This document shows positions 1,034 through 53,298 of a stretch of DNA of 54,252 nt, piece by piece; position 1 is the stretch's first letter; every line of letters begins with the position of its first letter. Under the pieces are notes generated by a model. It was not told where the DNA came from, did not search any database, and saw only the letters and a list, made by a program, of their open reading frames with translations. Source of the stretch: a virus; IMG/VR virus record IMGVR_UViG_3300017788_000032, positions 1 to 54,252 of that record; one strand, written 5' to 3'. Made by a program: the position numbers and the translations under genes.

Positions 1034-1040
1034 TATTTAC
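1034..1040 (-). promoter_or_regulatory. Late-promoter-like box GTAAATA, 5 nt before GTG at 1028
   Basis: One-base variant of the T4 late box at the spacing seen throughout this window. It supports the GTG start of the partial Pro/Thr-repeat gene. Confidence 0.5.
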
Positions 1041-2727: not shown

Positions 2728-4316
2728 TTATTATCAGAGTTATAAACTATATATTTGTCAGTATAAACAAAATCTAGACCACAATCTAACATTTTAAGCG
2801 CATCTTTATATGAATTTATAAGGGGTTTACCGTTTACATTAAAAGATGTATTAAGGAGAACGCCTATGCCTGAGTGTTTTTCAAATTCGGTAATTAAATC
2901 ATAAACCTTTTCATTCTGTTCACGTGTAACTGTTTGCAATCTAGCAGTACCATCAACATGAGTAATAGCAGATAGTTTTTCTTTCCATTCATCTTTAACT
3001 TTTGCATAAAAGCTCATAAATCTGCTCTCACCTTTCCAATAAAAATACTTTTCTACATCTTCTAACCGTACAATAGGCGCAAAAGGTCTAAACCATTCAC
3101 GCTTTTTTACCTTTTCATTTAAAATGTCCTTCATTCCCGGTATAGAAGGATTGCACATTATACTTCTATTACCTAATGCACGAGGCCCGTGTTCTGAATT
3201 ACCCCAAATAGTTCCTATAATTCTTCCTTCCGCTAAAAGCTTTGCAGCTTTTTCTAATGTATAAGGGTCAGTCCATTTACTTTCTATAAGCTCAAAAAAT
3301 GCATTGGGATCTATTGGAGGAAGCCCACCGTATGTCACATCAACTTGCTCTAAAGGTTTTTCAAAATCTAGAAGCATGCCTAGAGCTAGCCCACAATCAT
3401 TTGAATTTGGAGCTACAAAAACATCTCTGCCTGTTTTTTCTTTTAATTTAGTATTAAGAACAACATTTAAAGCGCATCCCCCTGTAATACAAATAGGTAA
3501 ATTTTTAAAATGATCTAGATAGGGCTCGATAATCTCAAAAAATACTTCTTCGAAAGCTTGCTGCGACGTTGTAGATAAATCTAATGATATATCACCTTCG
3601 AAGCGGTTACTGCTATCAAAGGTAATGCCAAGCTTTGTTCCTAAATCTTTTAAATAGCCTTCTATAATATTACCGTCGGGTTTTTTATAGTAAAACTCTT
3701 TAATATGAGGTAACCACTCATTTCTCACTTTACCATAGCCACAAAGACCCATTAATTTACCGGAATACACTAAATTACCTATGTTAATATCTGATTCAAA
3801 ATTAATATGACTACAATAGTGTCCAAAAATCATATATGCATAGCCCATATCAATATTATGACGAGCTATTTCTATGACACCGCCCTCTCGTGTAGCTGTG
3901 TATATATTAAAAAACCCGTCACTGCCACCGCCGTCAAAGCTTATTATTAATGCTTCAGTAAAGGGAGACTGGTAAAACGTACCTGCAGCATGTGCACGGT
4001 GGTGAAGGCAGGGTATATGGTTTTTCGCATTAATATATCTTTCAAAATAAAATTTTTCTAAACCGTTATCTGTACCGTAAACAACATCAGTGTTAGAAAA
4101 AATACAATTATCATAATCGTTATCTAAATTAAACTCTGTTTTTAAATAAGACATAATACCATCAAAAACTGTCTTAGCATTTCTACAAAGCCTATACTGT
4201 ACCATACCAAGGTTCTTTTTATTAGCAAATCTTTCTACTTCTAAAACACGATACCTACCATCATGCTTAAACGCAAAGCCACCGTTATGTGACCCGTAAA
4301 AAGCTATATTTTTCAT
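2724..4316 (-). CDS. O-carbamoyltransferase (NodU/CmcH family)
   Basis: 530 aa, full length for the family, which transfers a carbamoyl group from carbamoyl phosphate to a sugar or antibiotic hydroxyl. The N-terminal ASKHA-type domain shows the HHRAH metal-binding motif (105-109) and DGGGSDG (128-134). The C-terminal domain carries EHGPRALGNRSI and the terminal LNTSFN..GKP signature. It overlaps the genes on both sides by ATGA, placing it inside one translationally coupled sugar operon. I infer that it decorates a glycan built by the neighbouring GTs, on virion protein or host surface. The family call is firm; the substrate is unknown. Confidence 0.9.
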   Translation of the reverse strand: MKNIAFYGSHNGGFAFKHDGRYRVLEVERFANKKNLGMVQYRLCRNAKTVFDGIMSYLKTEFNLDNDYDNCIFSNTDVVYGTDNGLEKFYFERYINAKNHIPCLHHRAHAAGTFYQSPFTEALIISFDGGGSDGFFNIYTATREGGVIEIARHNIDMGYAYMIFGHYCSHINFESDINIGNLVYSGKLMGLCGYGKVRNEWLPHIKEFYYKKPDGNIIEGYLKDLGTKLGITFDSSNRFEGDISLDLSTTSQQAFEEVFFEIIEPYLDHFKNLPICITGGCALNVVLNTKLKEKTGRDVFVAPNSNDCGLALGMLLDFEKPLEQVDVTYGGLPPIDPNAFFELIESKWTDPYTLEKAAKLLAEGRIIGTIWGNSEHGPRALGNRSIMCNPSIPGMKDILNEKVKKREWFRPFAPIVRLEDVEKYFYWKGESRFMSFYAKVKDEWKEKLSAITHVDGTARLQTVTREQNEKVYDLITEFEKHSGIGVLLNTSFNVNGKPLINSYKDALKMLDCGLDFVYTDKYIVYNSDNK

Positions 4317-4861
4317 TTCTTAATATATGCTACTTGATAATAAACTTTATCGCCAACATCAATTTTTACGCTTATATCCTTATTATCAAGATTTAATATT
4401 TTAAGTTCAGGATAAAGCTTTTCCATAGACTCGAAATTTAATGTAGGTTGTAAGTGACGTTCATAAACATTACCAAAAACAACATCTTGCGGTAAATTTA
4501 ATGGCACTACAGCAAGAAACTCTTTTACTCTATTGAGATATTTGTCAATAACAGTTCTTGCATCAGTCTCAGAGAGGTGCTCTAGCGTATCACCCATAAT
4601 TATAATATCGTAATCAAATTCAGAAAACTCAAAATCAATAATGTTACCTAAAAATAAATTATTATATTTTTGTTTCAACCCATACTTCTCTATATAAGGT
4701 TCAAAAATTTCTATGCCATCAATATCGCTAAAATAATTCTTTAATAAATCACAATATGTTCCTTCACCGGCACCTACATCTAAAATCTTTGACGAGGCAG
4801 GAAACGTATTTGTAAGATACTTAACAATATCTGTTCTTAAGTAAGGCCAACTACCAGGCAT
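4313..4861 (-). CDS. Class I SAM-dependent methyltransferase
   Basis: 182 aa Rossmann methyltransferase. Motif I is ILDVGAGEG near residue 25, the acidic motif II is in DGIEIFEP, and post-motif DIIIMGDTLEHL matches the Methyltransf_11/23 type. Its position between a carbamoyltransferase and a GT suggests methylation of a sugar or small precursor rather than DNA. No DNA-binding domain or DPPY motif is present. The stop overlaps the next ATG (ATGA), and its own ATG lies 10 nt after the previous stop. No Shine-Dalgarno is visible. Confidence 0.8.
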   Translation of the reverse strand: MPGSWPYLRTDIVKYLTNTFPASSKILDVGAGEGTYCDLLKNYFSDIDGIEIFEPYIEKYGLKQKYNNLFLGNIIDFEFSEFDYDIIIMGDTLEHLSETDARTVIDKYLNRVKEFLAVVPLNLPQDVVFGNVYERHLQPTLNFESMEKLYPELKILNLDNKDISVKIDVGDKVYYQVAYIKK

Positions 4862-4871
4862 ATATTATATA

Positions 4872-5717
4872 CTACGAGACAAGAAATCTTCCATATGTGG
4901 GGTGTAATGAAGTAATATTAAATTCATTTAAGATATTTTTAATAAATGTTGCACCTCTAACATTAAGATAGATATTAAATAGACCATGCCTAACTCCTTC
5001 GACATATTGTACTATAAAAAAAGTATTAATATCTTTTTCATCTAATTCATCATAAGCTTTAAAATTTGAACATAATTTCTTATACCCGTAAATATTGTCG
5101 TTTTGCCATAATGTATATTTTTCTGTGCTAGGTATAATTTCTCTTCTTAACATCTTATTATCATAAAGTACTGAATTGTCAAAATCATGTAAGGTAATGC
5201 CTTTATTGTGTTCTAGTACTTTAAGAAGCGTTTCTTTTCTCCAAATACAGGGCTGAACAGAGCACATATATTGAAAATTATCTGGTATACAAAAAAGCTC
5301 GTCATTAAAAATTGATTGCTGATAAAGCTGCCAATTTTTTGATTTAGGATGACATGATGAAAAGCTAAAAAAATCTATATTATCACTATTCATAAGGTTA
5401 AGCAAATTCTCTAGATTTTTATAATCTATATCTCTAGATAAAAAATAATCATCACAAAAAAAGAAAATATATTTTTCGTCTATTTTAGATAAAGCATTTA
5501 TTAATGAGTAGGTAAAGTGACCGCCATTGCCTTGAAAATGCACATTTGTATCTATCACTGTAACAGTATCGTTTTTTTCAATCCTTACACCGTCGTTATT
5601 CGTAATAACAGTAAGGGGTATTTTATTTTGTGTATGCTTATAAAAAAGCTTTATAAAAAGATTTGCAATAGGAATGTATAGTTGATTGGTATAGCAAACG
5701 TATCTTAAGCTATTCAT
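4872..5717 (-). CDS. Putative GT-A glycosyltransferase
   Basis: 281 aa. Starts with a Rossmann-like RYVCYTNQLY strand. The KYIFFFCDDYFL segment near residue 95 is the probable metal/nucleotide-sugar site (DD in place of DxD). No membrane segment is present, so it should be soluble. The ATG overlaps the upstream gene by 4 nt (ATGA) and the gene ends in TAG. A glycosyltransferase fold is inferred from the motif, length and neighbours; the exact GT family is uncertain. Confidence 0.6.
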   Translation of the reverse strand: MNSLRYVCYTNQLYIPIANLFIKLFYKHTQNKIPLTVITNNDGVRIEKNDTVTVIDTNVHFQGNGGHFTYSLINALSKIDEKYIFFFCDDYFLSRDIDYKNLENLLNLMNSDNIDFFSFSSCHPKSKNWQLYQQSIFNDELFCIPDNFQYMCSVQPCIWRKETLLKVLEHNKGITLHDFDNSVLYDNKMLRREIIPSTEKYTLWQNDNIYGYKKLCSNFKAYDELDEKDINTFFIVQYVEGVRHGLFNIYLNVRGATFIKNILNEFNITSLHPTYGRFLVS

Positions 5718-6508
5718 TGATGCTCGGTAGGATGACCTATTTTATATCCGTTGGGGGTAACTATATCACTTAATACGGTACCGCAAAACTGTATGTCAAA
5801 AGCTTTGAATCCGGCAACATGCGCTGCAACACCTATTTCAAACCCTTCCGCCCAAGTACCCCAAGTATATTCTTTATTAGCTAAAAAGTCATGTAATTTT
5901 TTCCACTCTTCATAAAACTTTAAAATTTGATTATTTTTGTTTTCAAAAACAAAAAAGTATTCTGCAGGGAGACCTGCTCCATTCCATTCATTATGCGAAC
6001 CAGGCTGTAACTCAAACGCTTTTATTTTATGCCAAAATATATTTGGTTGAGGGTTTGTGGCTAGTTTATCGAAATATTCAGCTTTTACTGGGCCTAGCTT
6101 TAAATCGGCCCGAGGAGCAAAGAAATTAAAACCTTTAGACGTTTTATCTAGAAGATATGTTTCAATTACCTCGGTATTCCAATTTCTTATTGAATTGTCA
6201 CAATCAGTAAAGTAAATATAATCAGCCTGTACGTGCTCAAACGGCTTTAAGCAAATATATCTCATATTAAAATTAAAATCAGATGCTCCTTTACCGGGGC
6301 CAATAAAAAGTCTTATCTTAAAATCGTTTCTATCAATTTTTTGAATTATTATTCTATCGGTTTTAAATTTTTCCTCAATAACCTCAGGCAAATCTGTTGC
6401 AACAACTATTGACGCAGGTGTTTTATTAAGAACATCATCTGCAAACCTTAAAAAATAATCTGTTGTATAGTTTTTACCGAGGCTTAGTGTTGCAAAGCAA
6501 TGTTTCAT
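5714..6508 (-). CDS. Putative DxD glycosyltransferase
   Basis: 264 aa, soluble. YIYFTDCDNSI near residue 97 contains a DCD (DxD) metal-binding motif in the usual post-strand position. The preceding NMRYICLKPF helix and the later NEWNGAG and FFVFEN segments resemble small retaining GT-A enzymes. Translational coupling by ATGA to the genes on either side places it in the sugar-modification operon. Donor and acceptor are unknown. Another GT-A family member of different specificity is the main alternative. Confidence 0.6.
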   Translation of the reverse strand: MKHCFATLSLGKNYTTDYFLRFADDVLNKTPASIVVATDLPEVIEEKFKTDRIIIQKIDRNDFKIRLFIGPGKGASDFNFNMRYICLKPFEHVQADYIYFTDCDNSIRNWNTEVIETYLLDKTSKGFNFFAPRADLKLGPVKAEYFDKLATNPQPNIFWHKIKAFELQPGSHNEWNGAGLPAEYFFVFENKNNQILKFYEEWKKLHDFLANKEYTWGTWAEGFEIGVAAHVAGFKAFDIQFCGTVLSDIVTPNGYKIGHPTEHQ

Positions 6509-7458
6509 TGTATAAGCTTATTTATATCGAATACTTTATCAAATATACATGTTTGCGAATCTAAAGTACAGTTCTCTAGATACCATTTACGAGCATTTTG
6601 CCCTATATGCTCATATTTAGAGTAGTTGTTAACTATGTCATTATATTTTTCGACTATTGAATCTCTTAGTTCTTCATGATTAACCCTGGAAAGCCCGTCT
6701 GCAAATTTTGCATTTGGACATACGTCTACGTAATGTACGCCGGGGACCAAGGGATTATGAAAAATACAATTTAATTTTGGTCTAATTACAATTTTGCCCA
6801 GACCAAAGAGCTCAATATCGCGGTTACATATTTCTCCGGCCCCGTTTAAGCTCAAAGAACATATCTCGTTATGCATTTCTTTTACGTAATCATTAAAAGT
6901 TAGTCTTGAATTAGTAAATGATATGTTTTCGTGTTTTAAATTATTAGCTAACCACTCTCTTTCTTGATATAAAAACCCTCTAAAACAAATATTTTTACTT
7001 TTTTGTGATGGTATTTTTAAAGTTGTTTCAATATCTTTTACAAAAGATGTATTATATACATCGTATGTATACGGAATATGAACGCTATTTATATTTTCAG
7101 GGTATTCCCACTCTTCGCTTTGAAATGTATTTTTAAATTCATTATAAAAGTCATAATTAAATCCGCTAGAACATATAAACTGTTGCATATTTTTAGGCTG
7201 CCATTCAAAAAGCTTATTAAATACCCAAATATTTCTATCGTTAAGTGATACTATAGTGTATTTTTCTGTATCATTACAGAATATAGTAAAAATATGAGCG
7301 GAATATCTGCTGTAAATATTACCGTTTTTATTATCTTGAGGTATAAACGTGTGTTCGGGATATTTAGCTTTAAGATGGTCGAACAATCTTTGAAAAAGAT
7401 GCTGCCTATACCAAGTTGTATACTGGGCACCTTGCCAGAAGTACACATTAAAAGTCAT
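6505..7458 (-). CDS. Putative GT-B glycosyltransferase (GT90/CAP10-like C-terminus)
   Basis: 317 aa. Opens FNVYFWQGAQYTTWYRQHLF, which I do not recognise. The C-terminal part has SLNGAGEICNRDIELFGLGK, then a PGVHYVDV segment resembling the donor-site strand region of GT90/CAP10 enzymes. A helical tail follows with an NARKWYLENCT motif common in GT-B proteins. Its position between two other glycosyltransferases supports sugar transfer. The overlap with the next gene is ATGA; the start follows the upstream stop by 4 nt. Confidence 0.5.
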   Translation of the reverse strand: MTFNVYFWQGAQYTTWYRQHLFQRLFDHLKAKYPEHTFIPQDNKNGNIYSRYSAHIFTIFCNDTEKYTIVSLNDRNIWVFNKLFEWQPKNMQQFICSSGFNYDFYNEFKNTFQSEEWEYPENINSVHIPYTYDVYNTSFVKDIETTLKIPSQKSKNICFRGFLYQEREWLANNLKHENISFTNSRLTFNDYVKEMHNEICSLSLNGAGEICNRDIELFGLGKIVIRPKLNCIFHNPLVPGVHYVDVCPNAKFADGLSRVNHEELRDSIVEKYNDIVNNYSKYEHIGQNARKWYLENCTLDSQTCIFDKVFDINKLIQ

Positions 7459-7462
7459 TAGA

Positions 7463-8731
7463 CTAACTTACTTTATTGCCAATGATACCTGTAATGGGAT
7501 CAGCCCATCCTTTAGATACGCTATGAGGCCAAACAATCCAGCTATGCGGCATTTGCTCACAATTAAATTCACGCCATACTTTACAATATTTGTCCGGATC
7601 ATTAAACATCCTTTCAATTTCAGCTTTATCAGCATCTTTTCTAAACACATCCTTACCTTCTTTATCTTTGAAGGCTACACACCAAAAATCATAATCCTTT
7701 TCAGGGACTTGATCATATCTTACATCAATACAATGCTTAAAGATATTTAAAAACGATTTATCATACTCTTCTTGTGTCATACTATCATTTGGATTAGGTG
7801 GGAGCTTGTTATCTAACGTCCATCTTTGAACTGCGCGCTTTTTAAAGCATAGACCTGCATACTTTTCGTAGTCTTGTACAGATCTTATTTTGCCAAAATC
7901 ATATTTACCAAAATCAATGTCTTTCTTTTCACCATCCATTTCAAATAGCTTACGGTTACGAGAATGTGAGTCCTTATTAAACTGACCCCACGCAGGTACA
8001 TCATCCCAATGCTTAGATCTACCTTTCCTGGTATATTCGTGCCAAGCCACTATAATGTGGGGGTGAAATAAATCGTATCCCCAGGTATAAGAGCGCACTG
8101 CGAGGTTAATTTCTTCGCCATGAAAATAATAATAAGGATCATAAGGCACTTCTTTAACCCACTTACCTAAAGTAAAGATAAAGTGTGCAGAAACAAATCT
8201 AGCAGGAAGAGGTTCTGTACGAGATTTAAAATCATCTATAGAAGCGGGAAGAAAAAATACTGCACCTTCAGGAATAAATCTATCAAAATTCATCTTCCAG
8301 GGCACCTGCACGCGTGCACCGGGGTCATTATCTGGATCAAAGCTAGATATATAACCAGTTAAAAGAGGCTTTTTATGTCCCTTTTTCTGTAGCTGTTTAA
8401 CCATGTTAATACATTTTTCATCCCAATGCTCTACGAAACGATGGTGACTATCTAACTGCAAATAATATTTTTCATTTGTATAGTTGTCTTGGATTCTGCT
8501 ACGTGCCCAGCATGTCCCTTTGCTTTCTTTATATGGAATGGGTATAATCTTAAATCTTTTATCCTGAGAAAACTCTTCTAATGAATCATTTTCATCTTTT
8601 TGCCAGCAAATACTAAAGACAAGGTTCTCCGGGTGCTTTGCTTTCGCAATACAGTCTCTTAATGTTAGAAGAAGTTGTGGATCACGGTACGAGGCAATAG
8701 ATATAAAGATCTTATTATTAGCGCTTTTCAC
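7463..8731 (-). CDS. GlcNAc-transferase family glycosyltransferase (GT60, Skp1-type)
   Basis: 422 aa. The N-terminus IFISIASYRDPQL with LRDCIAKA and the YLQLDSHHRF motif near residue 92 are hallmarks of the GlcNAc family (Pfam PF11397). Its founding member adds GlcNAc to hydroxyproline of Skp1 in Dictyostelium. FHGEEINLAVRSYTWGYDLF matches the conserved acceptor-side segment. Start is GTG at 8731; no ATG is available in frame. It is the first gene of the sugar block and lies directly downstream of the Thr/Pro-rich adhesin gene, whose repeats are an obvious candidate acceptor. That link is inference; protein O-linked activity is known for the family. Confidence 0.8.
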   Translation of the reverse strand: MKSANNKIFISIASYRDPQLLLTLRDCIAKAKHPENLVFSICWQKDENDSLEEFSQDKRFKIIPIPYKESKGTCWARSRIQDNYTNEKYYLQLDSHHRFVEHWDEKCINMVKQLQKKGHKKPLLTGYISSFDPDNDPGARVQVPWKMNFDRFIPEGAVFFLPASIDDFKSRTEPLPARFVSAHFIFTLGKWVKEVPYDPYYYFHGEEINLAVRSYTWGYDLFHPHIIVAWHEYTRKGRSKHWDDVPAWGQFNKDSHSRNRKLFEMDGEKKDIDFGKYDFGKIRSVQDYEKYAGLCFKKRAVQRWTLDNKLPPNPNDSMTQEEYDKSFLNIFKHCIDVRYDQVPEKDYDFWCVAFKDKEGKDVFRKDADKAEIERMFNDPDKYCKVWREFNCEQMPHSWIVWPHSVSKGWADPITGIIGNKVS

Positions 8732-14361: not shown

Positions 14362-14368
14362 TATTTAA
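14362..14368 (-). promoter_or_regulatory. Late-promoter-like box TTAAATA, 5 nt before ATG at 14356
   Basis: Variant T4-type late box just upstream of the gp7-like gene. It overlaps the 3' end of the preceding PKD/propeller gene. Confidence 0.6.
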
Positions 14369-19680: not shown

Positions 19681-20163
19681 TTAGTTTATAAATGTGAATC
19701 CTGTATTACTTAATACACCTACAAGTCTAAAACTAGTAGTTGGATCGATTGTTACTATTGTTAATATTAAAGTTACCAAATATTGCTGATTCACCTCGTT
19801 TGGAGCTACGTTAATATTAAGAACTATTACTCGAGGTTCAAAAGTATTAAGCCCTTTAAGAATTATATTGCCAATATCAAAAGCATTGCTTTCAGTTACT
19901 GGTAAAAATAGGTATCTTTGAAGGTCTAATCCAAATAGCGGATTTAAAATCTTTTGACCTGGTATTGTAGTAAATAGATTAAAGATTGAATTTCTTACTG
20001 CAGCATAATCATAGTCGATTTTAAGATCTTTAATCTCTTTTCTTCTTAAAAATTCGTTGTTTTGTGTGTAGTCTAATTCTAGATCTAATAATAAATCAGT
20101 ATAGGTAAAATTACTTGTAGAGTCTTCAGGTTTTTGAATAGATTGAACTTTTATAGTTGCCAC
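19681..20163 (-). CDS. gp25: Baseplate wedge subunit gp25 (GPW/gp25 family)
   Basis: 160 aa. The region FNLFTTIPGQKILNPLFGLDLQRYLFLPV is the signature of gp25-like proteins (xxxGER/GQ-x-nPxfG). It is followed by the two-strand/helix core PRVIVLNINVAP. gp25 joins the wedge to the sheath initiation ring. The T4 type carries no lysozyme activity despite the fold name. The start is GTG at 20163, not the out-of-frame ATG two bases earlier, because only the GTG frame gives the family. A perfect TATAAATA late box sits 5 nt before it. First gene of the wedge operon. Confidence 0.9.
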   Translation of the reverse strand: MATIKVQSIQKPEDSTSNFTYTDLLLDLELDYTQNNEFLRRKEIKDLKIDYDYAAVRNSIFNLFTTIPGQKILNPLFGLDLQRYLFLPVTESNAFDIGNIILKGLNTFEPRVIVLNINVAPNEVNQQYLVTLILTIVTIDPTTSFRLVGVLSNTGFTFIN

Positions 20164-20168
20164 ATAGA

Positions 20169-20176
20169 TATTTATA
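20169..20176 (-). promoter_or_regulatory. Late promoter TATAAATA, 5 nt before GTG of gp25
   Basis: Exact T4 late consensus. With T4 geometry the first transcribed base would fall on the GTG itself, predicting a leaderless gp25 operon transcript. Confidence 0.75.
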
Positions 20177-20219
20177 CAACTTTATTTCTTTAAAACCTGG
20201 TTTTATTAATGATATAAAC

Positions 20220-20227
20220 AATAAATA
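20220..20227 (+). promoter_or_regulatory. Late promoter AATAAATA, 6 nt before ATG at 20234
   Basis: Late box on the plus strand, divergent from the gp25 promoter. The whole divergent intergenic region is 70 bp. Confidence 0.7.
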
Positions 20228-20233
20228 TTTTAA

Positions 20234-20836
20234 ATGAAGCGAAATTTTGTCAAATTATTTGAATCTGCATTACAGCGTTATTCTAGTGGTGGTTTTCTTA
20301 CCGGAGACGTAGTTGTTTTTAGAGAAGGAGCTATGAGCGATGAGTGGTTTAAGTCGTTAGGTAGTAATACTAAAGAGAAGATTAAAAACATGGTAAATAG
20401 TGGTTTAAATTTACGTGTATCTGCTATTAAAAATAAGTATCCTAATGTTGGTGGCGCGGGTAACACAGATTTTATAGGATCTGATGTAGATGTTGATATC
20501 ACGTCAGAAATTGCACCTGGTCGTTATATGGATTTTGTTACAGTTCCTGGTAGATTGCTCGAGCCTAAGAGTTCATACCCTAATTTACCTGAAGTACCTG
20601 AAGTATTTAAAAAAGACGATCCCAGTAAGCGCACAAACATAAAGCCAGAGGTTGTAAAGGACGAGCAAGAGGAAGTGCCTTTTTTCTCTCCAGCGCAAAC
20701 TCGTCTATCTGATGTTGGTAATAAAAAGCTATCAAAAGGTGATCGCGAATTAAAGAATCAAAATGTGAAGATACCTTCGTCTCCCGCCAAAGGTCATAAT
20801 GACCCGGCAAGCTATACAGCTAATTACCTTCCTTAA
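20234..20836 (+). CDS. Hypothetical late protein, 200 aa
   Basis: I do not recognise a family. The N-terminal half (KLFESALQRYSSGGFLTGDVVVF..., GSDVDVDITSEIAPG) looks globular. The C-terminal ~90 residues are charged and Pro/Lys-rich, likely disordered, ending PASYTANYLP. There is no signal peptide or membrane segment. A late box 6 nt upstream places it with virion genes, so a minor head or assembly protein is a reasonable guess. Its last 17 nt overlap the 3' end of the convergent gp44 gene. No Shine-Dalgarno is visible. Confidence 0.75.
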   Translation: MKRNFVKLFESALQRYSSGGFLTGDVVVFREGAMSDEWFKSLGSNTKEKIKNMVNSGLNLRVSAIKNKYPNVGGAGNTDFIGSDVDVDITSEIAPGRYMDFVTVPGRLLEPKSSYPNLPEVPEVFKKDDPSKRTNIKPEVVKDEQEEVPFFSPAQTRLSDVGNKKLSKGDRELKNQNVKIPSSPAKGHNDPASYTANYLP

Positions 20837-22231: not shown

Positions 22232-22259
22232 AGTATAATATGAGTTTATAAAAGATCAA
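22232..22259 (-). promoter_or_regulatory. Sigma70-like early promoter of dut-gp44
   Basis: -10 TATACT at 22232-22237, 16-nt spacer, -35 TTGATC at 22254-22259. Only 6 nt separate the -10 box from the ATG, so the predicted transcript starts at or next to the AUG. Confidence 0.55.
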
Positions 22260-22264
22260 TAGGC

Positions 22265-22272
22265 TATAAATA
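22265..22272 (+). promoter_or_regulatory. Late promoter TATAAATA, 5 nt before ATG at 22278
   Basis: Exact late consensus, divergent from the early dut promoter within a 52-bp intergenic gap. Confidence 0.75.
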
Positions 22273-26822: not shown

Positions 26823-26829
26823 TATTTAT
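26823..26829 (-). promoter_or_regulatory. Late promoter ATAAATA, 5 nt before ATG of gp53
   Basis: Strict ATAAATA core (preceded by G) at leaderless spacing. Confidence 0.7.
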
Positions 26830-30010: not shown

Positions 30011-30017
30011 TATTTAA
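30011..30017 (-). promoter_or_regulatory. Late-promoter-like box TTAAATA, 6 nt before ATG of tape measure
   Basis: Variant late box in the 27-nt gap before the tape measure gene. Confidence 0.55.
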
Positions 30018-30786: not shown

Positions 30787-31629
30787 CTATTTATTAGGAG
30801 ATAATGGGTTTGCAATGCTTGCTTTACTCTGCTCTTTTTCTAATTTACTCATTTCTGTTTCATAAATGTTGGCTAAAACCATATTTTCTGCCAAAGTATT
30901 ATTGTCAAGATATTCCGGGGTGTAAAATAGTTTACTGACTAAAATATATTGTAATTCTAAAATACTCTTTAAATTTGCATTATACAACGCTTTAAGTATT
31001 TCCAGTAAAGAGAGATTGTAAGGTGAAAGTGTTACGCGTTGTTCATTTTTTTTACCCACTTCTAAAACTAATGTTTTAAAAGATTCGTTAATTTCATCAC
31101 TAAATGTTTTAATATGCTTGGTAATTTCAGCAGGTAGCATGTCATAAAGATCTTGTCTATTAGAAGGGTAGACAATCTCTTTACCATCAAAAAATACTTG
31201 AGAAATTGAGTCATAAAACACATCATACAAAGTTTCAAATTGTAAGAGTTTGGGCAGAGTTACTCTTACTTCAGCTTTATCTATTTTAATGGTTTTAGTA
31301 AATTCTGTTTTAAAATCTAAACATTTTTTAAGAAATGGTAGTAAGGAAAACTTAGCAGAAAGCGGGCCCTCCTTATATTCAATATCTGGAGATATGCATG
31401 TACATCTCAAAAGAAAGAGTGCACAAAATTTATCAAAATTTGTAAGTTTATAAAATTTGTCGGAATCAAGAATTGACTCTTCTAATATTTTATCAAAATA
31501 TTCAGCAATATGATCGTTATTATTATTAATTAAAAACTTATTAAGAGTCTTATATTGACTAAAAGTTATTTCTTTAACCTTTAGTTTTTCTCCTAACGTA
31601 GGGGCGTCAAAATTTATATAAAATGGCAT
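30787..31629 (-). CDS. Second chaperone-like protein before the tape measure (gp26/gp51-like)
   Basis: 280 aa, soluble and mostly helical. LKVKEITFSQYKTLNKFLINNN and FDKFCALFLLRCTCIS are similar in layout to the neighbouring 249-aa protein and to gp26-like baseplate proteins, which bind peptide-like partners. The last ~20 residues are Lys/Ser-rich. Its ATG overlaps the stop of the 302-aa tube-like gene (TAATG). The pair of similar-looking proteins next to the tape measure suggests they act together on it. Identity not certain. Confidence 0.45.
   Translation of the reverse strand: MPFYINFDAPTLGEKLKVKEITFSQYKTLNKFLINNNNDHIAEYFDKILEESILDSDKFYKLTNFDKFCALFLLRCTCISPDIEYKEGPLSAKFSLLPFLKKCLDFKTEFTKTIKIDKAEVRVTLPKLLQFETLYDVFYDSISQVFFDGKEIVYPSNRQDLYDMLPAEITKHIKTFSDEINESFKTLVLEVGKKNEQRVTLSPYNLSLLEILKALYNANLKSILELQYILVSKLFYTPEYLDNNTLAENMVLANIYETEMSKLEKEQSKASIANPLSPNK
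30788..30794 (-). promoter_or_regulatory. Late promoter ATAAATA, 6 nt before ATG at 30781
   Basis: The box overlaps the last codons and stop of the upstream chaperone-like gene, an example of a promoter embedded in coding sequence. Confidence 0.65.
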
Positions 31630-32542: not shown

Positions 32543-32549
32543 TATTTAA
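32543..32549 (-). promoter_or_regulatory. Late-promoter-like box TTAAATA, 5 nt before GTG at 32537
   Basis: Lies in the 16-nt gap after gp19. It supports the GTG start. Confidence 0.55.
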
Positions 32550-33107: not shown

Positions 33108-33114
33108 TATTTAT
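33108..33114 (-). promoter_or_regulatory. Late promoter ATAAATA, 5 nt before ATG of gp19
   Basis: Sits in the 15-nt gap between sheath and tube genes; overlaps the sheath 3' boundary. Confidence 0.7.
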
Positions 33115-35415: not shown

Positions 35416-35422
35416 TATTTAT
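35416..35422 (-). promoter_or_regulatory. Late promoter ATAAATA, 6 nt before ATG of gp18
   Basis: Strict core in a 40-nt intergenic gap; no Shine-Dalgarno between box and ATG. Confidence 0.7.
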
Positions 35423-36106: not shown

Positions 36107-37128
36107 TTAATATATAGGGTAGCGGATTATTACTACACCAGATCCTCCTGCTCCTCCTCCTGCTGGCCTGAAGTGTAATTGCCTCCACCACCTCCACCTC
36201 CTAAGCCATTAGTACCGGGTAACCCCATAGCATTGTTTGGGTAATCATACCAACAACCTCCAGCACCACCTCCGCCTAATCCTCCGTTAATACGAGTAAA
36301 TGCTACATTATAGTACGCATTGCTACCCGCGCCGCCGCCTGCATAAAAAGTAGCTATCCCAGTAATATTACACATTATACCGGTACCACCTTCACCACCC
36401 ATATAGTAAGGATCAGCAGTTTCACCGCTTCCTCCTGCTCCTCCGCCTCCACCGCCTGCATAGGATGTATAGGAGCCGTTCCCTCCACCACCTCCATTGC
36501 CCCCTAAAACACCATTAGTACCTTTTGAGCCTGCACCACCTGTAGCAAAAGGAGAATTATCTACTGCTCCTGCTCCGCCTCCACAGCCACCGGGTCTACC
36601 GTTAGTATAAGTTAAATTTGAGTTCCAATATGTGCCGCCTCCACCACCCCCGGCGACACTGTAAATATCGAATTGTGATGCACCGCCATCACCGCCTACA
36701 GTATTATTATACCTAACTGCACCGCCTGCAGTACCCCCTGCACCGACAACTACAGTCTTATTGCCAAAAGTAACTGGAACGCTGGTATTATAGTAAACGC
36801 CTCCTGCACCACCACCTCCAGCTAGATCCCCCCCTCCACCTCCGCCTCCACCAACTACTAAAACTTCTACCGTAGGGTTATTCTGTGCTAAAGAAATATT
36901 AAAAGAACTAGTTCCAACAGATGTAAAGGTATGTATTTTGTATCGTATACCTCTTTCTACAATTTCAGTTACACTGTTTCCCCCTGTTGCTATTATTAAA
37001 GGTCTGCCTGCAGCGGTAAGTGAAGCTACTGTCGTTTTATATGTTGTAGTTGCATCAGAAATAGGCAATACCTGTGATCCTGCAAGGTTGGGTACCGTAT
37101 TGAGCTGGTTAATGGTTACGTCGGCCAT
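36107..37128 (-). CDS. Glycine-rich tail fibre/adhesin, with 1-nt frameshift near the 3' end
   Basis: Begins MADVTINQL, the N-terminal module shared with the products at 41390 and 54192. After residue ~85 it is a long Gly-rich region (GGGGG, GGAGG runs), as in polyglycine-sandwich phage adhesins. The uninterrupted frame ends at 36133 with an atypical QQEEEQEDLV tail. One frame over, the DNA reads GGGAGGSGVVIIRYPIY then TAA at 36107, which is the usual C-terminus of such proteins. A missing base near 36165 would restore it (about 340 aa). A TTAAATA late box lies 5 nt before the ATG. I infer a receptor-binding fibre tip. Confidence 0.75.
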
Positions 37129-37133
37129 TAAAT

Positions 37134-37140
37134 TATTTAA
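37134..37140 (-). promoter_or_regulatory. Late-promoter-like box TTAAATA, 5 nt before ATG at 37128
   Basis: Lies immediately before the terminase stop codon (37141-37143), within the 12-nt gap. Confidence 0.6.
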
Positions 37141-39333: not shown

Positions 39334-39341
39334 TATAAATA
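39334..39341 (+). promoter_or_regulatory. Late promoter TATAAATA, 6 nt before ATG at 39348
   Basis: Exact consensus lying wholly within the 20-bp gap between divergent genes. It overlaps a minus-strand TATACTA element (39331-39337) that may serve the terminase. Confidence 0.75.
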
Positions 39342-39347
39342 CTTAAT

Positions 39348-40259
39348 ATGAACCAGACAAGAACGCTAGTAGAAATGGGTGCACACTATGAAAAGAGTGT
39401 CATCGAGGAAAAGAAGTCTATCTTTCCTCCAAAAGATACTTTTAAGCTAGCTACTGATAAGAAGCCAGTTGAAGCTAAAGCAGATCCAAAAGCTTTTATT
39501 AATAAAAAGTCTGGTCCGGAGAATGCTGATGGATTTAAAAAAGAAATCATTGATATTAAAGATCCAAAAATAGCTAAAAAGGAAAATTTCGTAGAACCTA
39601 AAAAATTCTCACAAAACCTCGAAAAAACAGAAGTTCAAACAATAAATACTAATATGAGTAAATCTATTTTTGACAAACTATATGAGGACGTCATGTCTGA
39701 TCAGTTAGAAGCTGATGTTAATGACGCTGAAGCCCTCGGTCTTCCTTCAAGCGATTCCGGTGAAAGCGCTGGTGGTGAAGAAGAAGTAACTTTCACCCTT
39801 TCTCGTGATGTAGCTCAGAAGCTCCACGACGTTCTAGTGGCTGCTCTCGGCGCTGAAGAAGCTTCCGACGAGGGTTCTGATGAAGGTGCTGGCGACGAAG
39901 TCGGCGCTCCTGAAGAAGCCAATGAAGAGAAGAAGAACGAAAAGAAGAAAGAAGAAGAAAAGGATGAAGATTCAGAGAATGTAGCTGCCGAAGCCACAGA
40001 GCTCAAGGAACTTCCTACTTCCGCCGGCGAAAGCCTTCAAAAGAAGGACAATAAAGTCGGTGATGTAACAAAGAGTTTGGTATCCCACGGTGCCGGTGAT
40101 TCAAAAGTCACTGACAAAGTTGGAAACGATGGTGAAAAGGGTCATGCCCTCGTCGGTGCAGGAGTAAAAGGTGGAGCTCCTACATCCCCTAAGGGTAAGG
40201 CTAATGTAGTTAACGCTAAGGCCTCTAAGGTCGGTGCTTACCTAGCTGGTCTAAAATAA
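39348..40259 (+). CDS. Acidic/Lys-rich head or core-like protein, long form
   Basis: 303 aa. Residues 1-102 are Lys/Pro-rich, low-complexity and AT-rich in DNA. From Met103 the sequence changes to MSKSIFDKLYEDVM followed by an Asp/Glu/Ala-rich, probably coiled or disordered region (EEEVTFTLSRDVAQKLHDVL, then Glu/Lys runs), ending in a Gly/Lys tail. No enzyme motif. Charged, abundant-looking proteins of this kind serve as prohead core or internal head proteins in T4-like phages; that role is inferred. It has its own late promoter and is followed by the only strong terminator found. Confidence 0.65.
   Translation: MNQTRTLVEMGAHYEKSVIEEKKSIFPPKDTFKLATDKKPVEAKADPKAFINKKSGPENADGFKKEIIDIKDPKIAKKENFVEPKKFSQNLEKTEVQTINTNMSKSIFDKLYEDVMSDQLEADVNDAEALGLPSSDSGESAGGEEEVTFTLSRDVAQKLHDVLVAALGAEEASDEGSDEGAGDEVGAPEEANEEKKNEKKKEEEKDEDSENVAAEATELKELPTSAGESLQKKDNKVGDVTKSLVSHGAGDSKVTDKVGNDGEKGHALVGAGVKGGAPTSPKGKANVVNAKASKVGAYLAGLK
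39642..39648 (+). promoter_or_regulatory. Internal late promoter ATAAATA, 5 nt before ATG at 39654
   Basis: Strict box inside the coding region of the 303-aa protein, in register with an in-frame ATG. It predicts a separate leaderless mRNA for the short form. Confidence 0.65.
39654..40259 (+). CDS. Nested short form of the core-like protein (201 aa)
   Basis: Same frame and stop as the 303-aa protein but starting at Met103 (MSKSIFDKLYEDVM). Support: a late box 5 nt before the ATG, and a sharp change in composition at this point. Upstream codons are AT-rich; downstream Ala, Gly and Glu codons use far more G and C (GCC, CTC, GGC), like a highly expressed protein. The short form may be the main product and the long form an extended variant, or the two may have fused from separate genes. 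Confidence 0.55.
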   Translation: MSKSIFDKLYEDVMSDQLEADVNDAEALGLPSSDSGESAGGEEEVTFTLSRDVAQKLHDVLVAALGAEEASDEGSDEGAGDEVGAPEEANEEKKNEKKKEEEKDEDSENVAAEATELKELPTSAGESLQKKDNKVGDVTKSLVSHGAGDSKVTDKVGNDGEKGHALVGAGVKGGAPTSPKGKANVVNAKASKVGAYLAGLK

Positions 40260-40320: not shown

Positions 40321-40327
40321 TTAAATA
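40321..40327 (+). promoter_or_regulatory. Late-promoter-like box TTAAATA, 5 nt before ATG at 40333
   Basis: Directly downstream of the terminator T-run, restarting late transcription for the gp14 unit. Confidence 0.6.
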
Positions 40328-40654: not shown

Positions 40655-41380
40655 ATGTCTACACAATATTATACCGGTAATGTAGATCCGAAAGTATATC
40701 CATTTACTTTTGTAGATAATCCCTGTTTTAGATATACTGATAAAGGTAAAAATGCAGATGAAAGAAATATAATTTCTAATTATTGGAGAGAGCAAATTAA
40801 TCTTTATGGTCAGAAAGTCGGTTACATAGTTAATAATACTACTACTTTAAGTGCTGATATGTTATATGGTGAACAACCTACTCAACACTATGCACCTCCA
40901 CAAGATATAATTATAGCAATTAATTTAAATGAAAATGCGTTAATGTTGAGTAAATTTGGTTTAGTATCGGATGATGAAGTAACAGCATTTGTTCATATAA
41001 GTGCATTTTATGATACTTTTGGATATGGTGCAGAGCCTAAGTCAGGAGATTTATTCCAGCTAGTAGAATATGGAAATGACCGTCCCGGGGGAAGAAATGG
41101 TAACATTTATGAGATAACTCAAAGACTTGATCAAGATATTGCACAAATTAATCCATTGATGGGTCATTATCTTTGGTTAATAAAAGCCAAGCGTTTTGAG
41201 TACTCCTTCGAACCGGGTGTTACTCCCGAAGCACAAAACCAACAAGTGTTTGATGATACTGTTCGTCCGGGTGTCTCCGGTGCAGAAAAAAATTATAATT
41301 ATGACGTCAATAATACATCTAAAACCATTTTTGATTACTCACAAACAGATTATTCAAACGTATATGGAGGTTATCAATAA
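40655..41380 (+). CDS. gp14: Neck protein gp14
   Basis: 241 aa (T4 gp14 256 aa). Segments YWREQINLYGQKVGYIVNN and LYGEQPTQHY resemble the T4 pattern QMRGVECYYVPR...LIFGED. SKFGLVSDDEVTAFVHI and EPKSGDLFQL match the conserved central block, and LWLIKAKRFEYSFEPG the C-terminal strand. gp14 completes the head-tail neck before tail joining. It starts 1 nt after the upstream stop with no promoter of its own; its own stop overlaps the late box of the next gene. Confidence 0.75.
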   Translation: MSTQYYTGNVDPKVYPFTFVDNPCFRYTDKGKNADERNIISNYWREQINLYGQKVGYIVNNTTTLSADMLYGEQPTQHYAPPQDIIIAINLNENALMLSKFGLVSDDEVTAFVHISAFYDTFGYGAEPKSGDLFQLVEYGNDRPGGRNGNIYEITQRLDQDIAQINPLMGHYLWLIKAKRFEYSFEPGVTPEAQNQQVFDDTVRPGVSGAEKNYNYDVNNTSKTIFDYSQTDYSNVYGGYQ

Positions 41381-41383
41381 ATA
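41377..41383 (+). promoter_or_regulatory. Late promoter ATAAATA, 6 nt before ATG at 41390
   Basis: Overlaps the TAA stop of gp14, so the promoter partly uses the stop codon. Confidence 0.7.
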
Positions 41384-41389
41384 TTTGCT

Positions 41390-42004
41390 ATGCCCGATGT
41401 AACTATCAGTCAACTAGGAAGAGGAGCACCAAATAAAAATACCGCAGTTGTTCCTTATTCAGACGGAAATACAACTTATAATACATCGCCTTCTGGTATT
41501 GTAGCAGCAAGCCCGGGCTGTATTTTACAAGTCAAACAAATAGTTAAAGATGATTTTTGGACAACGACTAATAATGTTCCAAATTATGCAGATATAACAG
41601 GCCTTTCAATATCAATTACTCCTACGTCTGCTCAAAGTAAAATATTAGTTACTGCAAATGTTCTTGGATCGTGTAATGATAACTCATTTATTAGACTAAT
41701 GAGAAATATAAATGGAGGTGCTTTCACACAAATTTATACTAATTCATTAGCTTCTCCGGGTAATAGAACTAAAGTGTCTATGGGAGATTTTTATATGGTA
41801 GGTTCACCGGGCTCTGGTGCTGGTCAACAAAACACAAGTTTATTTCTTGACAGTCCTAATACAACCGATCCAGTGATATACAAATTACAAGGTTGTACTA
41901 GAAATAGTAGAACGTTTGTTATTAACGCAACATATTACGATGCAAATGCTGATTATCAAATAATAGGAGCGTCTTCTATAACTTTAATGGAAGTAGCGGG
42001 TTAA
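41390..42004 (+). CDS. Fibre-like protein with MADVTISQL-type N-terminus
   Basis: 204 aa. The N-terminus MPDVTISQLGRGAPNKNTAVVPYSDGNTTYNT matches the start of the glycine-rich fibre (36107-37128) and the partial gene at 54192, so it is probably an attachment module. Residues ~50-204 form a beta sandwich seen in marine phage fibres: LSISITPTSAQSKILVTANV, FIRLMRNINGG, SLFLDSPNTTDPVIYKLQG and a final SITLMEVA. I infer a short tail-fibre or decoration protein. Its 3' end overlaps the convergent gene by 4 nt. Confidence 0.7.
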   Translation: MPDVTISQLGRGAPNKNTAVVPYSDGNTTYNTSPSGIVAASPGCILQVKQIVKDDFWTTTNNVPNYADITGLSISITPTSAQSKILVTANVLGSCNDNSFIRLMRNINGGAFTQIYTNSLASPGNRTKVSMGDFYMVGSPGSGAGQQNTSLFLDSPNTTDPVIYKLQGCTRNSRTFVINATYYDANADYQIIGASSITLMEVAG

Positions 42005-43793: not shown

Positions 43794-43800
43794 TATTTAT
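43794..43800 (-). promoter_or_regulatory. Late promoter ATAAATA, 5 nt before GTG at 43788
   Basis: One of two opposed late boxes in a 36-bp divergent gap. Confidence 0.7.
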
Positions 43801-43810: not shown

Positions 43811-43817
43811 ATAAATA
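43811..43817 (+). promoter_or_regulatory. Late promoter ATAAATA, 7 nt before ATG at 43825
   Basis: Partner of the minus-strand box. The two cores are separated by 10 bp (43801-43810). Confidence 0.65.
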
Positions 43818-45480: not shown

Positions 45481-45488
45481 TATTTATA
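45481..45488 (-). promoter_or_regulatory. Late promoter TATAAATA, 5 nt before ATG at 45475
   Basis: Exact consensus embedded among replication genes, giving one late gene inside an otherwise early region. Confidence 0.7.
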
Positions 45489-46624: not shown

Positions 46625-46951
46625 TTAATCTCCAGAGCTATCTCTGGTACTATTATACAAAAACTTATTTAAAAGTGCTCCCAAGGAATCAGCTTCCTGT
46701 TGATTATGAGCTGATATCATTGAAATAGGCTCGCCCTCAAAATTATAGCCGAGCAAAATAAAACAATTTAAAAATTCTAATATTTGACTAGTTAAAGCGT
46801 CTAAATCTTTTTTATTTGAAACTTTGTCTTTAATTTGCTCTCTTAAAAACGATACTAAAGCCTTGTGAGTAAGTTCTTTAACTTCCTTATTTTCATTAGG
46901 ATTAAAGTTGTTATCACTATTTTTCTTAGACGACTTTTTGTCCTTCATCAT
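46625..46951 (-). CDS. Hypothetical protein, 107-108 aa
   Basis: N-terminal ~25 residues Lys/Asn-rich, then helical (ELTHKALVSFLREQIKDKV, LDALTSQILEFLNCFILLGYN). Two adjacent ATGs are possible. The TTAAATA box at 46955-46961 is 3 nt before the first but 6 nt before the second (46948), so the second fits the window-wide spacing better. It overlaps the upstream gene by 26 nt. No family recognised. Confidence 0.6.
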   Translation of the reverse strand: MMKDKKSSKKNSDNNFNPNENKEVKELTHKALVSFLREQIKDKVSNKKDLDALTSQILEFLNCFILLGYNFEGEPISMISAHNQQEADSLGALLNKFLYNSTRDSSGD

Positions 46952-47300
46952 AATTATTTAATCTTTTTGACAAGTATCTATCGCGTCCCTGATAATGAGA
47001 GTTGTTTGAAACACCATGTCTTATCAAGTAATCAACAATGACTTCGATACTATCGGTTTTAATGTAGAAGTTTTTAGGTATTCTTTTGCCGCCGTCATGT
47101 ATTTCAAATAGCGTTTCATTAATATTATCTCTATTAGTATAGCAAGTAATAAGTACTGAAGCCTCGCTTGGATTGACCATAATCGTCCATTGACGGGGAT
47201 CTGATTTATTATAAATGTTAAATAGCTTAATTACAATAAAGCCGTTATCGCGTAAACGCTTTATGAAATAACTAGGTGTTCTGAGTTTATTCCTGCTCAT
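46926..47300 (-). CDS. Conserved hypothetical protein next to gp45, 124 aa
   Basis: Basic start MSRNKLRTPSYFIKRLRDNGF, then KLFNIYNKSDPRQWTIMVNP, LFEIHDGGKRIPKNFYIKT and SIEVIVDYLIRHGV. I associate this pattern with an unnamed protein found next to replication genes in marine T4-like phages. The N-terminal basic helix could bind nucleic acid. The ATG overlaps the gp45 stop by one base (TAATG), so it is coupled to the clamp. Confidence 0.7.
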   Translation of the reverse strand: MSRNKLRTPSYFIKRLRDNGFIVIKLFNIYNKSDPRQWTIMVNPSEASVLITCYTNRDNINETLFEIHDGGKRIPKNFYIKTDSIEVIVDYLIRHGVSNNSHYQGRDRYLSKRLNNYDEGQKVV

Positions 47301-48031
47301 TAATTAGCAAGTGCTGATATAACGAATTTAAAGCTAGAATTATCTAAGTTTAAATCTAATGTCACTACTCCCATTTTCGAGATGATACGAGATTGTATCT
47401 CTTTGAATCTCATAGAAGAAATTATTCTAAATATATCAAAATTCAACGGCATAGCTAGTGCAAACTGGGTTCCTTCGTAATCAGATGAAATATTAATTCC
47501 ATAAGAGTCTACATTGGGTCTAGTTTTATCCGTTAATTCACCAAATACTGTACTATCTTTTACTGAAATATAAATTTTATTTGTTTCTGTGCTTACTGAA
47601 CTGCCTTTTATTAGGCTCAATACTGAATTATATGCAAGGGTAAATTTACCATCAAATTCAAATTGATTTAGCTTTTCAATATTAAGTTTCGGTGAGGTAA
47701 TGATATTATCATCATAAAGATGGTACTTAAAACGAACACTATTGGATTTATAGCCAATAAAATTTGCAGATATGTCTAGCTCGTAAGATGTCTCTTCAAT
47801 ACAAGAAATAACCCGGCAAAGCTTTTTAATATCAGGTATGTTAAGCGTTTTTGAAGATGTATTACCCAACAAACTATATTCAGCGTGAACAATAACCGTA
47901 TTATCGTTAGTTGATATAAGTGATGTTATTTTTTCTTTATCAACCTTTACAACAGCGCTATCTGTAACTCTACTTAAAGGTAATAAAAAACTATTTAAAA
48001 AACCATCTTTATCGGTTATTTTTAGAGTCAT
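47300..48031 (-). CDS. gp45: Sliding clamp gp45
   Basis: 243 aa (T4 gp45 228 aa). Two-fold clamp topology: N-terminal half with VDKEKITSLISTNDNTVIVHAEY and an IPDIKKLCRVIS loop, C-terminal half with FTLAYNSVLSLIKGSS, SSDYEGTQFALAMPL and MGVVTLDLNLDNSSFKFVIS. It forms the trimeric ring tethering polymerase and, in T4, activating late transcription with gp55 and gp33. The clamp loader subunit gp44 is at 20820. No late box, as expected for a replication gene. Confidence 0.85.
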   Translation of the reverse strand: MTLKITDKDGFLNSFLLPLSRVTDSAVVKVDKEKITSLISTNDNTVIVHAEYSLLGNTSSKTLNIPDIKKLCRVISCIEETSYELDISANFIGYKSNSVRFKYHLYDDNIITSPKLNIEKLNQFEFDGKFTLAYNSVLSLIKGSSVSTETNKIYISVKDSTVFGELTDKTRPNVDSYGINISSDYEGTQFALAMPLNFDIFRIISSMRFKEIQSRIISKMGVVTLDLNLDNSSFKFVISALAN

Positions 48032-49330: not shown

Positions 49331-49361
49331 AGTAATATAGTAGTATGTTCTTTCTATTAAA

Positions 49362-50018
49362 TCAAGCTTTATTTATAATTTTTTTTAGGCCAAGCTCTAC
49401 TAATTTGCCTGCTTTTTTAGAATTGTAGAGTTTTGTTCTAAAAAAGGATATATTGTTATATGTTTCTTCACCAAGTATAAACTTTACAACTTCAGCATCT
49501 CTTGACTTTAATCTTCTTTCAAAATCAGGAAACCCAAATAAAACAAATAAGCTTATGTCATGATTTTTGAGGTGAATAATGAATGACAATTCATTATTTG
49601 TCATATGATTGACATAATTTAATACATTAATATTTCTATCTTTACAAAAATTATAAATAAACACTAACGATTTTTTTATACCGTTCAGCTGTTCTTCAGA
49701 ATCTGGATCTTGAAGCAATTGTTTTTTATTAAAAAGAGTATACGTCTTAGTAGCTTTTAGTGAATGAAAATATTCTAAAGGAAAATAAGTTTCATCTGGA
49801 TATAATGCGAACGGAGCTTTAAAAAATTCTTCAAGTTTAATTTGTGGATATCTTTTTAAAAAAGATGAAACTTTTTTTAGAGCCACAAAGCTCTTTTCAT
49901 CTAATTTTTCAAAATCTTTTCTAAACTTAAAGGGTTGGTTATTACTAGACCTTGAAACCTTTAAATATGTATTATAAACGCGTTTATCGAACTCAGTAAT
50001 CAATTGTAATATTTCCAC
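49362..50018 (-). CDS. Probable helicase loader gp59
   Basis: 218 aa, the same length as T4 gp59 (217 aa), helical and basic. The C-terminal half (YVNHMTNNELSFIIHLKNHDISLFVLFGFPDFERRL) resembles the gp59 C-terminal pattern of helix-then-FETFILL. T4 order is 33-59-32; here a gp33 candidate and bS21 precede and gp32 follows. gp59 loads gp41 onto gp32-coated DNA. Start GTG at 50018 overlaps the bS21 gene by 19 nt. The call rests on size, character and order, not a diagnostic motif. Confidence 0.55.
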   Translation of the reverse strand: MEILQLITEFDKRVYNTYLKVSRSSNNQPFKFRKDFEKLDEKSFVALKKVSSFLKRYPQIKLEEFFKAPFALYPDETYFPLEYFHSLKATKTYTLFNKKQLLQDPDSEEQLNGIKKSLVFIYNFCKDRNINVLNYVNHMTNNELSFIIHLKNHDISLFVLFGFPDFERRLKSRDAEVVKFILGEETYNNISFFRTKLYNSKKAGKLVELGLKKIINKA

Positions 50019-50212
50019 TTATTACGAGACAATTCTTTTTTTACCCTTCTTAATGCACTAGGCTTGTAATAACATCTCTTTAGACGCAATTCATCTATTA
50101 CTCCGGATTTTAAAAATTCTCTGCTAAACTTATTATATGCTCTATCAAAATAAGCTTTATCTGTACTTTTCTTTTTGTCCAACTTTACATATGCATTAAC
50201 TACTTTACTCAT
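50000..50212 (-). CDS. rpsU-like: Ribosomal protein bS21 homologue
   Basis: 70 aa. The core FDRAYNKFSREFLKSGVIDELRLKRCYYKPSALRRVKK (residues 22-59) matches bacterial bS21: A..F.R...KSG...E.R....Y.KPS..R.k. The N-terminal MSKVVNAYVK strand is also bS21-like. bS21 sits at the 30S platform near the anti-Shine-Dalgarno end of 16S rRNA. Phage-encoded bS21 is known from some marine and huge phages and is thought to join host ribosomes during infection. Coupled between the gp33 candidate (ATGA) and gp59 candidate. The phage-mRNA preference is inference. Confidence 0.8.
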   Translation of the reverse strand: MSKVVNAYVKLDKKKSTDKAYFDRAYNKFSREFLKSGVIDELRLKRCYYKPSALRRVKKELSRNKWKYYN

Positions 50213-53270: not shown

Positions 53271-53298
53271 ATTATATGATAAAGAATAAATAATTCAA
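53271..53298 (-). promoter_or_regulatory. Sigma70 promoter of the glutaminase gene
   Basis: -10 TATAAT at 53271-53276, 16-nt spacer, -35 TTGAAT at 53293-53298. Unlike the dut and gp61 promoters it leaves room for a short leader with a Shine-Dalgarno. Confidence 0.6.
53286..53292 (+). promoter_or_regulatory. Late promoter ATAAATA, 7 nt before ATG at 53300
   Basis: Overlaps the spacer and abuts the -35 of the divergent early promoter, so early and late transcription would compete here. Confidence 0.65.

Follow-up and report, generated by a model that had tools for sequence, protein, structure and literature searches.

Late expression led by Shine-Dalgarno (SD) sites has its textbook example in the T4-like phages. 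The T4 late system comprises gp55, gp33 and gp45 acting at TATAAATA promoters, each with an 8-bp box that begins at position -13, roughly one helical turn ahead of the transcription start (+1) (PMC2988020). A late motif, NATAAATA, has also been described for cyanophages (PMC2984593). Leaderless mRNAs are known from mycobacteria, Deinococcus and other bacteria, where ATG or GTG, and not TTG, stands at +1 and the -10 element lies a short way upstream of the start (PMC4633059, PMC3160421). In mycobacteria, both ATG and GTG serve leaderless initiation at +1, and enrichment of TTG was seen only where an SD leader was present (PMC4633059). No description of leaderless T4-like late genes was found in the open-access papers searched.

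The stretch of DNA analyzed here (the window) is a 54,252-base IMG/VR fragment of an uncultured T4-like phage. It encodes T4-type replication and packaging genes (clamp loader, primase, helicase, single-strand DNA-binding protein, dUTPase, terminase) and structural genes (tail sheath, tail tube, baseplate wedge), and it shares T4-type core genes with its Kyanoviridae relatives, the cyanophages Syn9 and P-SSM2, the pelagiphage HTVC008M and the methylophage Melnitz. A 20-kb stretch of the window had no near-identical DNA among 50,697 phage records, and the window proteins tested were <60% identical to any protein of that collection. The window thus represents a T4-like branch without a close cultured member in the collection. 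Behind the tail genes lies a sugar-modifying gene cluster (1069-8731, minus strand) with a Nol-like carbamoyltransferase, a glycosyltransferase and a methyltransferase. The related contig G001 carries at least seven similar genes in tandem (152129-157072, L099), most with the N-terminus MADVTI, which is also that of window gene 36133-37128; these genes are likewise similar to 41390-42004.

A sequence-only reading of the window had proposed that late promoter boxes sit 5 to 7 nt before start codons that have no SD, and that the late transcriptome is therefore leaderless. All 21 starts preceded by (A/T/G)TAAATA were recovered at their exact positions (Table 1), with 14 ATAAATA, 6 TTAAATA and 1 GTAAATA boxes at spacers of 5 nt (12 starts), 6 nt (7 starts) and 7 nt (2 starts). 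No real SD was present in the last 20 nt before any of them. GGAG-like letters at 41390 and 33102 precede the box and so could not be transcribed from it, and SD-like letters are absent between box and start in the window. The spacing also withstood comparison with shuffled upstream regions: 21 of 58 genes have a box at 5 to 7 nt, while in 2,000 dinucleotide shuffles of the 30 nt preceding each start the number of such genes averaged 0.79 and never exceeded 6. At this position in the window TAAATA outnumbers every other hexamer, and the box is rare at other distances from the start. The open reading frame of start 1028 is incomplete, as it extends past the left end of the window, and the ATG at 46948 directly follows another ATG. 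The boxes of 20163 and 20234 form a divergent pair within one 70-bp gap. Start 39654 lies in frame within ORF 39348-40259 (plus strand) and has a late box of its own, which four relatives retain; judged by geometry, with no mapped RNA 5' end, it is a putative internal leaderless start yielding a shorter form of the protein.

Table 1. Predicted promoter elements and selected genes of the window
Feature	Positions	Strand	Spacer (nt) and start	Product	Relatives and remarks
Late box GTAAATA	1034..1040	-	5, GTG 1028		Frame truncated at the window edge
Late box TTAAATA	14362..14368	-	5, ATG 14356		Spacer 5 in 4/4 relatives
Late box ATAAATA	20169..20175	-	5, GTG 20163	Baseplate wedge	Spacer 5 and GTG in 4 relatives
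Late box ATAAATA	20221..20227	+	6, ATG 20234		Kept in 4 relatives, spacer 5 or 6
Early-type promoter TTGATC-N16-TATACT	22232..22259	-	-10 ends 6 nt before ATG 22225	dUTPase	
Late box ATAAATA	22266..22272	+	5, ATG 22278		
Late box ATAAATA	26823..26829	-	5, ATG 26817	Baseplate wedge-like	
Late box TTAAATA	30011..30017	-	6, ATG 30004	Weak tape-measure protein match	
Late box ATAAATA	30788..30794	-	6, ATG 30781		
Late box TTAAATA	32543..32549	-	5, GTG 32537	Weak tail-tube family match	Spacer 5 and GTG in 4 relatives
Late box ATAAATA	33108..33114	-	5, ATG 33102	Tail tube	
Late box ATAAATA	35416..35422	-	6, ATG 35409	Tail sheath gp18	
Late box TTAAATA	37134..37140	-	5, ATG 37128		
Late box ATAAATA	39335..39341	+	6, ATG 39348		
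Late box ATAAATA	39642..39648	+	5, internal in-frame ATG 39654		Spacer 5 in 4/4 relatives
Late box TTAAATA	40321..40327	+	5, ATG 40333		Spacer 5 in 4/4 relatives
Late box ATAAATA	41377..41383	+	6, ATG 41390	Tail-fibre-like	
Late box ATAAATA	43794..43800	-	5, GTG 43788		Spacer 5 and GTG in 4 relatives
Late box ATAAATA	43811..43817	+	7, ATG 43825		Divergent with box 43794..43800
Late box ATAAATA	45481..45487	-	5, ATG 45475		
Late box TTAAATA	46955..46961	-	6, ATG 46948; 3, ATG 46951		Spacer 6 in G001-G003
Gene	47300..48031	-		Sliding clamp, gp45-type	AlphaFold2 pLDDT 86.6; Foldseek top matches PCNA and beta clamp, E ~1e-12
Early-type promoter TTGATT-N17-TACTAT	49337..49365	-	-10 ends 6 nt before ATG 49330	SSB (PHROG)	
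Gene	50000..50212	-		Ribosomal protein bS21, phage-encoded	PF01165 above cut-off; subclade-specific; leaderless link not shown
Late box ATAAATA	53286..53292	+	7, ATG 53300		Spacer 7 in G001, G002, G005

Because the starts in the window had been chosen by the sequence-only reading, the test was rerun on genomes that it had not seen. A search with the tail-sheath protein retrieved 80 relatives. In four large relative contigs, about 39 to 41, 48 to 51, 40 and 29 genes have a box at 5 to 7 nt (shuffle means 2.8, 3.3, 2.1 and 1.7; maxima 9, 12, 7 and 6), as do 52 genes of a distant 197-kb contig, G009 (mean 3.4, maximum 11). Across whole relative contigs the commonest spacer is 5 nt, then 6 and 7 nt. 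The fixed spacing therefore recurs in independent relatives, and most boxes of the window recur orthologue by orthologue, with the same or neighboring spacing, at 40 to 80% protein identity. Upstream of gp18, nearly all of about 70 relatives keep (A)TAAATANTTTAT and then the ATG, with the 6-nt spacer retained while the flanks have diverged. About 9 to 12 nt ahead of the late box of gp18 lies a further conserved block, AAAGTTTTATC or AAACTTTGTC (L004-L083); it was not seen at the other late boxes of the window and is specific to gp18. SD-like letters precede 2 of 193 box genes, compared with 22 of 193 in an upstream control stretch (G001, G002, G003, G005 and the window summed). Start calling was mechanical (ATG and GTG only, from open frames), and gene counts are not fully independent, as the main relatives share orthologues.

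In contrast, control stretches (T4, Syn9, P-SSM2, HTVC008M, Melnitz and others) have a box at 5 to 7 nt in only 0 to 2 genes, and their starts are richer in SD. Whereas boxes in this clade lie 5 to 7 nt from starts without SD, those in a 50-kb T4 stretch lie mostly 24 to 28 nt before SD-rich starts, and those in 50-kb stretches of Syn9 and P-SSM2 almost all lie ≥15 nt before the start. When the range was widened to 4 to 8 nt, 0 to 1 gene each had a box in phiM9, Melnitz, C48C1, XG4, Cr30 and two single-cell viruses, and 4 genes did in HTVC008M. Boxes of Syn9, P-SSM2, HTVC008M and Melnitz are mostly ≥11 nt upstream, with SD-like starts in about 25 to 80% of genes; this leadered T4-like layout, with room for an SD between box and start, is not that of the clade of the window. 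Within the clade, 43.9% of 1,204 genes have a box at 5 to 7 nt and 8.8% have SD-like starts, versus 1.5% and 55.8% of 658 genes in leadered loci. When loci were split by box position alone, SD-like starts made up 8.8% (near box) versus 49.7%. Likewise, a wider scan scored per locus gave 92 near-box loci with 8.8% SD-like starts, compared with about 50 to 56% in leadered, far-box loci.

Transcripts do not include the promoter box from which they start, and in a leaderless mRNA the start codon stands at the 5' end or no more than 5 nt from it. As the box sits upstream of +1, the leader can be at most 5 to 7 nt long, whatever the exact start site. Start-codon choice further constrains this site. 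GTG starts occur at spacers of 5, 6 and 7 nt in 34, 4 and 1 genes, and ATG starts in 81, 41 and 21 genes (Fisher p=3e-4), while TTG starts with a box at 5 to 7 nt are at background level only. At spacer 7, a purine occupies the sixth base after the box, equivalent to +1 in T4, in 27 of 31 cases. In the absence of mapped 5' ends, start-codon choice fits a putative +1 six bases after the box together with a purine rule for +1.

The late box resembles the T4 late system in its sequence, its use at structural genes and the accompanying gp55 homologue and sliding clamp. It stands before tail, baseplate and other structural genes, while several replication genes have none. It differs from T4 TATAAATA in that its first base is relaxed to A, T or G, and upstream column counts of box genes contained no conserved block in the -35 region. 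A gp55-type late sigma factor homologue, with its conserved core and central motif, was identified in 8 of 8 large relatives tested (E 1e-18 to 1e-21); the gene is not in the window fragment. As inferred from its modeled fold, the clamp encoded in the window would be the expected late-transcription activator. A search for gp33 yielded 46625-46948, which is conserved and of compatible size but without any family match.

Genes without a late box often have TTGA-N16/17-TATAAT, with the -10 element ending 5 to 8 nt before the start (mode 6 nt). Early-type promoters whose -10 ends 3 to 9 nt before the start precede 15, 23, 18 and 12 genes in four contigs (shuffles, 0.6 to 0.9) and none in the T4 stretch; a looser threshold gave 76 early-type instances. 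In the distant contig G009, 15 genes have such a promoter at 3 to 9 nt and 4 at 10 to 45 nt, and in the SD-using contig G016 the relation is reversed (3 and 10 genes, respectively). The early and the late programs thus both look leaderless. In bacteria with leaderless mRNAs these are part of the cellular genome, whereas here they would make up the early and late programs of a lytic phage, read in part with a phage sigma factor.

Overall, the proposal of a leaderless late transcriptome is supported by the sequence tests, although no RNA 5' end has been mapped. It needs widening, as the layout is not confined to late genes, and narrowing to the heads of transcription units, internal genes being excepted. 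The boxes, their spacing and conservation, the absence of SD, the start-codon rule, gp55 in the relatives and the clamp fold are demonstrated features; the leaderless reading itself rests on geometry, and promoter activity, the exact +1 and the mode of ribosome binding are inferred. We consider it highly probable that in this T4-like lineage promoter and start codon are fused, with leaderless early and late unit heads and coupled internal genes. In the proposed model, gp55-type sigma and the gp45 sliding clamp would read late genes from an NTAAATA -10 box whose downstream edge lies 5 to 7 nt before ATG or GTG, and transcription would start at the start codon or 1 to 2 nt before it. Host sigma70-type holoenzyme would read early genes from TTGA-N16/17-TATAAT promoters placed likewise. 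The resulting mRNAs would have leaders of 0 to 2 nt, at most about 7 nt, without an SD, and translation would presumably proceed by leaderless initiation at a 5'-terminal AUG or GUG, with operon-internal genes reached mainly through stop-start coupling.

As to the cause, we consider it most likely that the lineage has adapted to a host with ribosomes tolerant of leaderless mRNA that lacks an SD, although this is an inference. An improbable but not negligible alternative is that the phage itself makes the ribosome competent for leaderless mRNA, for example by inserting its own bS21. Indeed, bS21 is encoded in 9 of 9 tested contigs of the window's subclade, and phage bS21 was reported to enter Escherichia coli ribosomes and to lower translation there (PMC6375957). 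Initiator tRNA supply has been reported to favor leaderless translation (PMC9031893), and G001 carries an initiator-like tRNA-Met (L092:14018-14094, plus strand) with no 1:72 pair and an initiator-type D arm. However, no bS21 was detected in two distant leaderless contigs, G009 and G014 (129 kb), or in five partial ones, whereas HTVC008M, which uses SD, does encode it, and the initiator-like tRNA was found in a single genome. bS21 was accordingly rejected as a clade-wide cause and, on gene content, may be an accessory at most. Aquatic lake phages with their own bS21 have been described (Chen et al. 2022, PMC9723584), in a study in which no statement on leaderless mRNAs or promoters was found; here, the leaderless layout reaches members without detected bS21. 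A tRNA-Met kept in G001-G003 was rejected as an initiator, since its paired 1:72 end, judged by eye, marks an elongator or Ile-type tRNA. No phage IF3 was found.

The host could not be assigned. An actinobacterial host was rejected, as WhiB is absent from 9 contigs and the bS21 that the clade encodes was not found in a Corynebacterium control. A genome scan with gp18 found no relative, and comparison of bS21 with solved structures pointed to no clear phylum. The tRNA-Glu best matches Saprospiraceae/Bacteroidota (64 to 66 of 74 bases; Rhodobacteraceae, 61 to 63), a match too weak to name a host and in conflict with the sigma70-type early promoters. Published Bacteroidota promoters are of the TAnnTTTG type, and few mRNAs are leaderless in Flavobacterium psychrophilum (5.5%) and Bacteroides thetaiotaomicron (3.7% with leaders <10 nt) (PMC9723704, PMC7366714). 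SD-free starts and one tRNA lean toward Bacteroidota, whereas published promoters and the low leaderless share point the other way. Leaderless relatives also carry tmRNA genes (L100:282-688, minus strand; L243:15777-16193, minus strand; L253:7028-7454, plus strand), supported by Rfam RF00023 in G002 and G009 and by ARAGORN only in G014; the predicted tag of the G002 tmRNA has an atypical end.

Tightly packed internal genes mostly have neither a promoter box nor a clear SD, and stop-start coupling is frequent. SD enrichment at internal genes is weak or absent (51 of 253, versus 34 of 253 in a control stretch; four contigs summed). Neighboring genes frequently overlap by 4 or 1 nt (27 to 37 instances in G001-G003), which suggests translational coupling. 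Both strict promoter patterns are missing from most internal genes and from about a third to half of unit-head genes. On present sequence evidence, the architecture appears to be one of leaderless unit heads and coupled followers, and not of cistrons that are each leaderless. Many box genes closely trail a gene on the same strand, so that read-through and a leadered mRNA may also be possible. It is unlikely, though, that functional transcripts arise mainly from promoters further upstream and that the near boxes are minor or relict. Read-through probably covers many of these packed box genes, and a minority of TAAATA boxes in relatives do lie further upstream, but the fixed spacing of the near boxes has been kept across deep divergence. 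Furthermore, the divergent pairs 20163/20234 and 43788/43825 exclude read-through from the facing gene, and there are no SD sites to serve read-through mRNAs.

The distribution of the hexamer bears on whether TAAATA is instead a translation signal, i.e., an AT-rich or Kozak-like element that ribosomes recognize on a leadered mRNA, and not a promoter. The upstream regions are AT-rich and SD-free, and Flavobacterium johnsoniae is reported to use Kozak-like sequences in place of SD (PMC6847099). However, enrichment at 5 to 7 nt is restricted to one exact hexamer (178 occurrences in 685 genes versus 4.2 expected), TAAGTA (15 versus 1.6) being the sole single-base variant with clear enrichment. The hexamer matches the T4 late promoter core exactly and is found alongside gp55, it is absent from most of the tightly packed internal genes, TTGA/TATAAT takes its place before many replication genes, and its spacing follows the +1 purine rule, all of which makes a translation signal very unlikely. 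Least credible of all is that start codons, being taken from open frames only, were mis-called and that the real starts lie downstream after ordinary SD leaders, as orthologue alignments at 40 to 80% identity reach residue 1 in most genes, in-frame SD-preceded alternatives lie within 20 codons in only 2 of 230 box genes, and gp18 is already conserved from residue 6 (SPGV), before any further methionine.

With promoter and start codon fused as preferred here, the distribution of the trait can be followed on the gp18 tree, in which leaderless loci form one deep, long-stemmed clade with a leadered, SD-rich group (L183, L186 and L197) nested inside. After two mis-trimmed rows (branch length 10) were dropped, the label required two state changes, and a single leaderless clade was not rejected (p-AU 0.43). 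One switch with one reversal and two gains would both be compatible with the tree, and the matter is not settled. We regard it as probable that a whole myovirus lineage has dispensed with 5' leaders and SD in early and late expression alike, with most of its diversity keeping the trait and one nested group having regained or kept SD leaders.

The leaderless contigs and the nested SD-using group offer a natural contrast on what drives the switch, and such phages can be recognized in genomes simply by near-box spacing. Starts may be misplaced here by gene finders that take SD into account, while promoter and start are jointly predictable. The predicted host has leaderless-competent, SD-indifferent ribosomes. 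As both promoter classes lie at the start codon in a large T4-like branch, an entire lytic program can probably run leaderless. If this is true, each promoter would be joined to its start codon, and one element would set the start of both transcription and translation.
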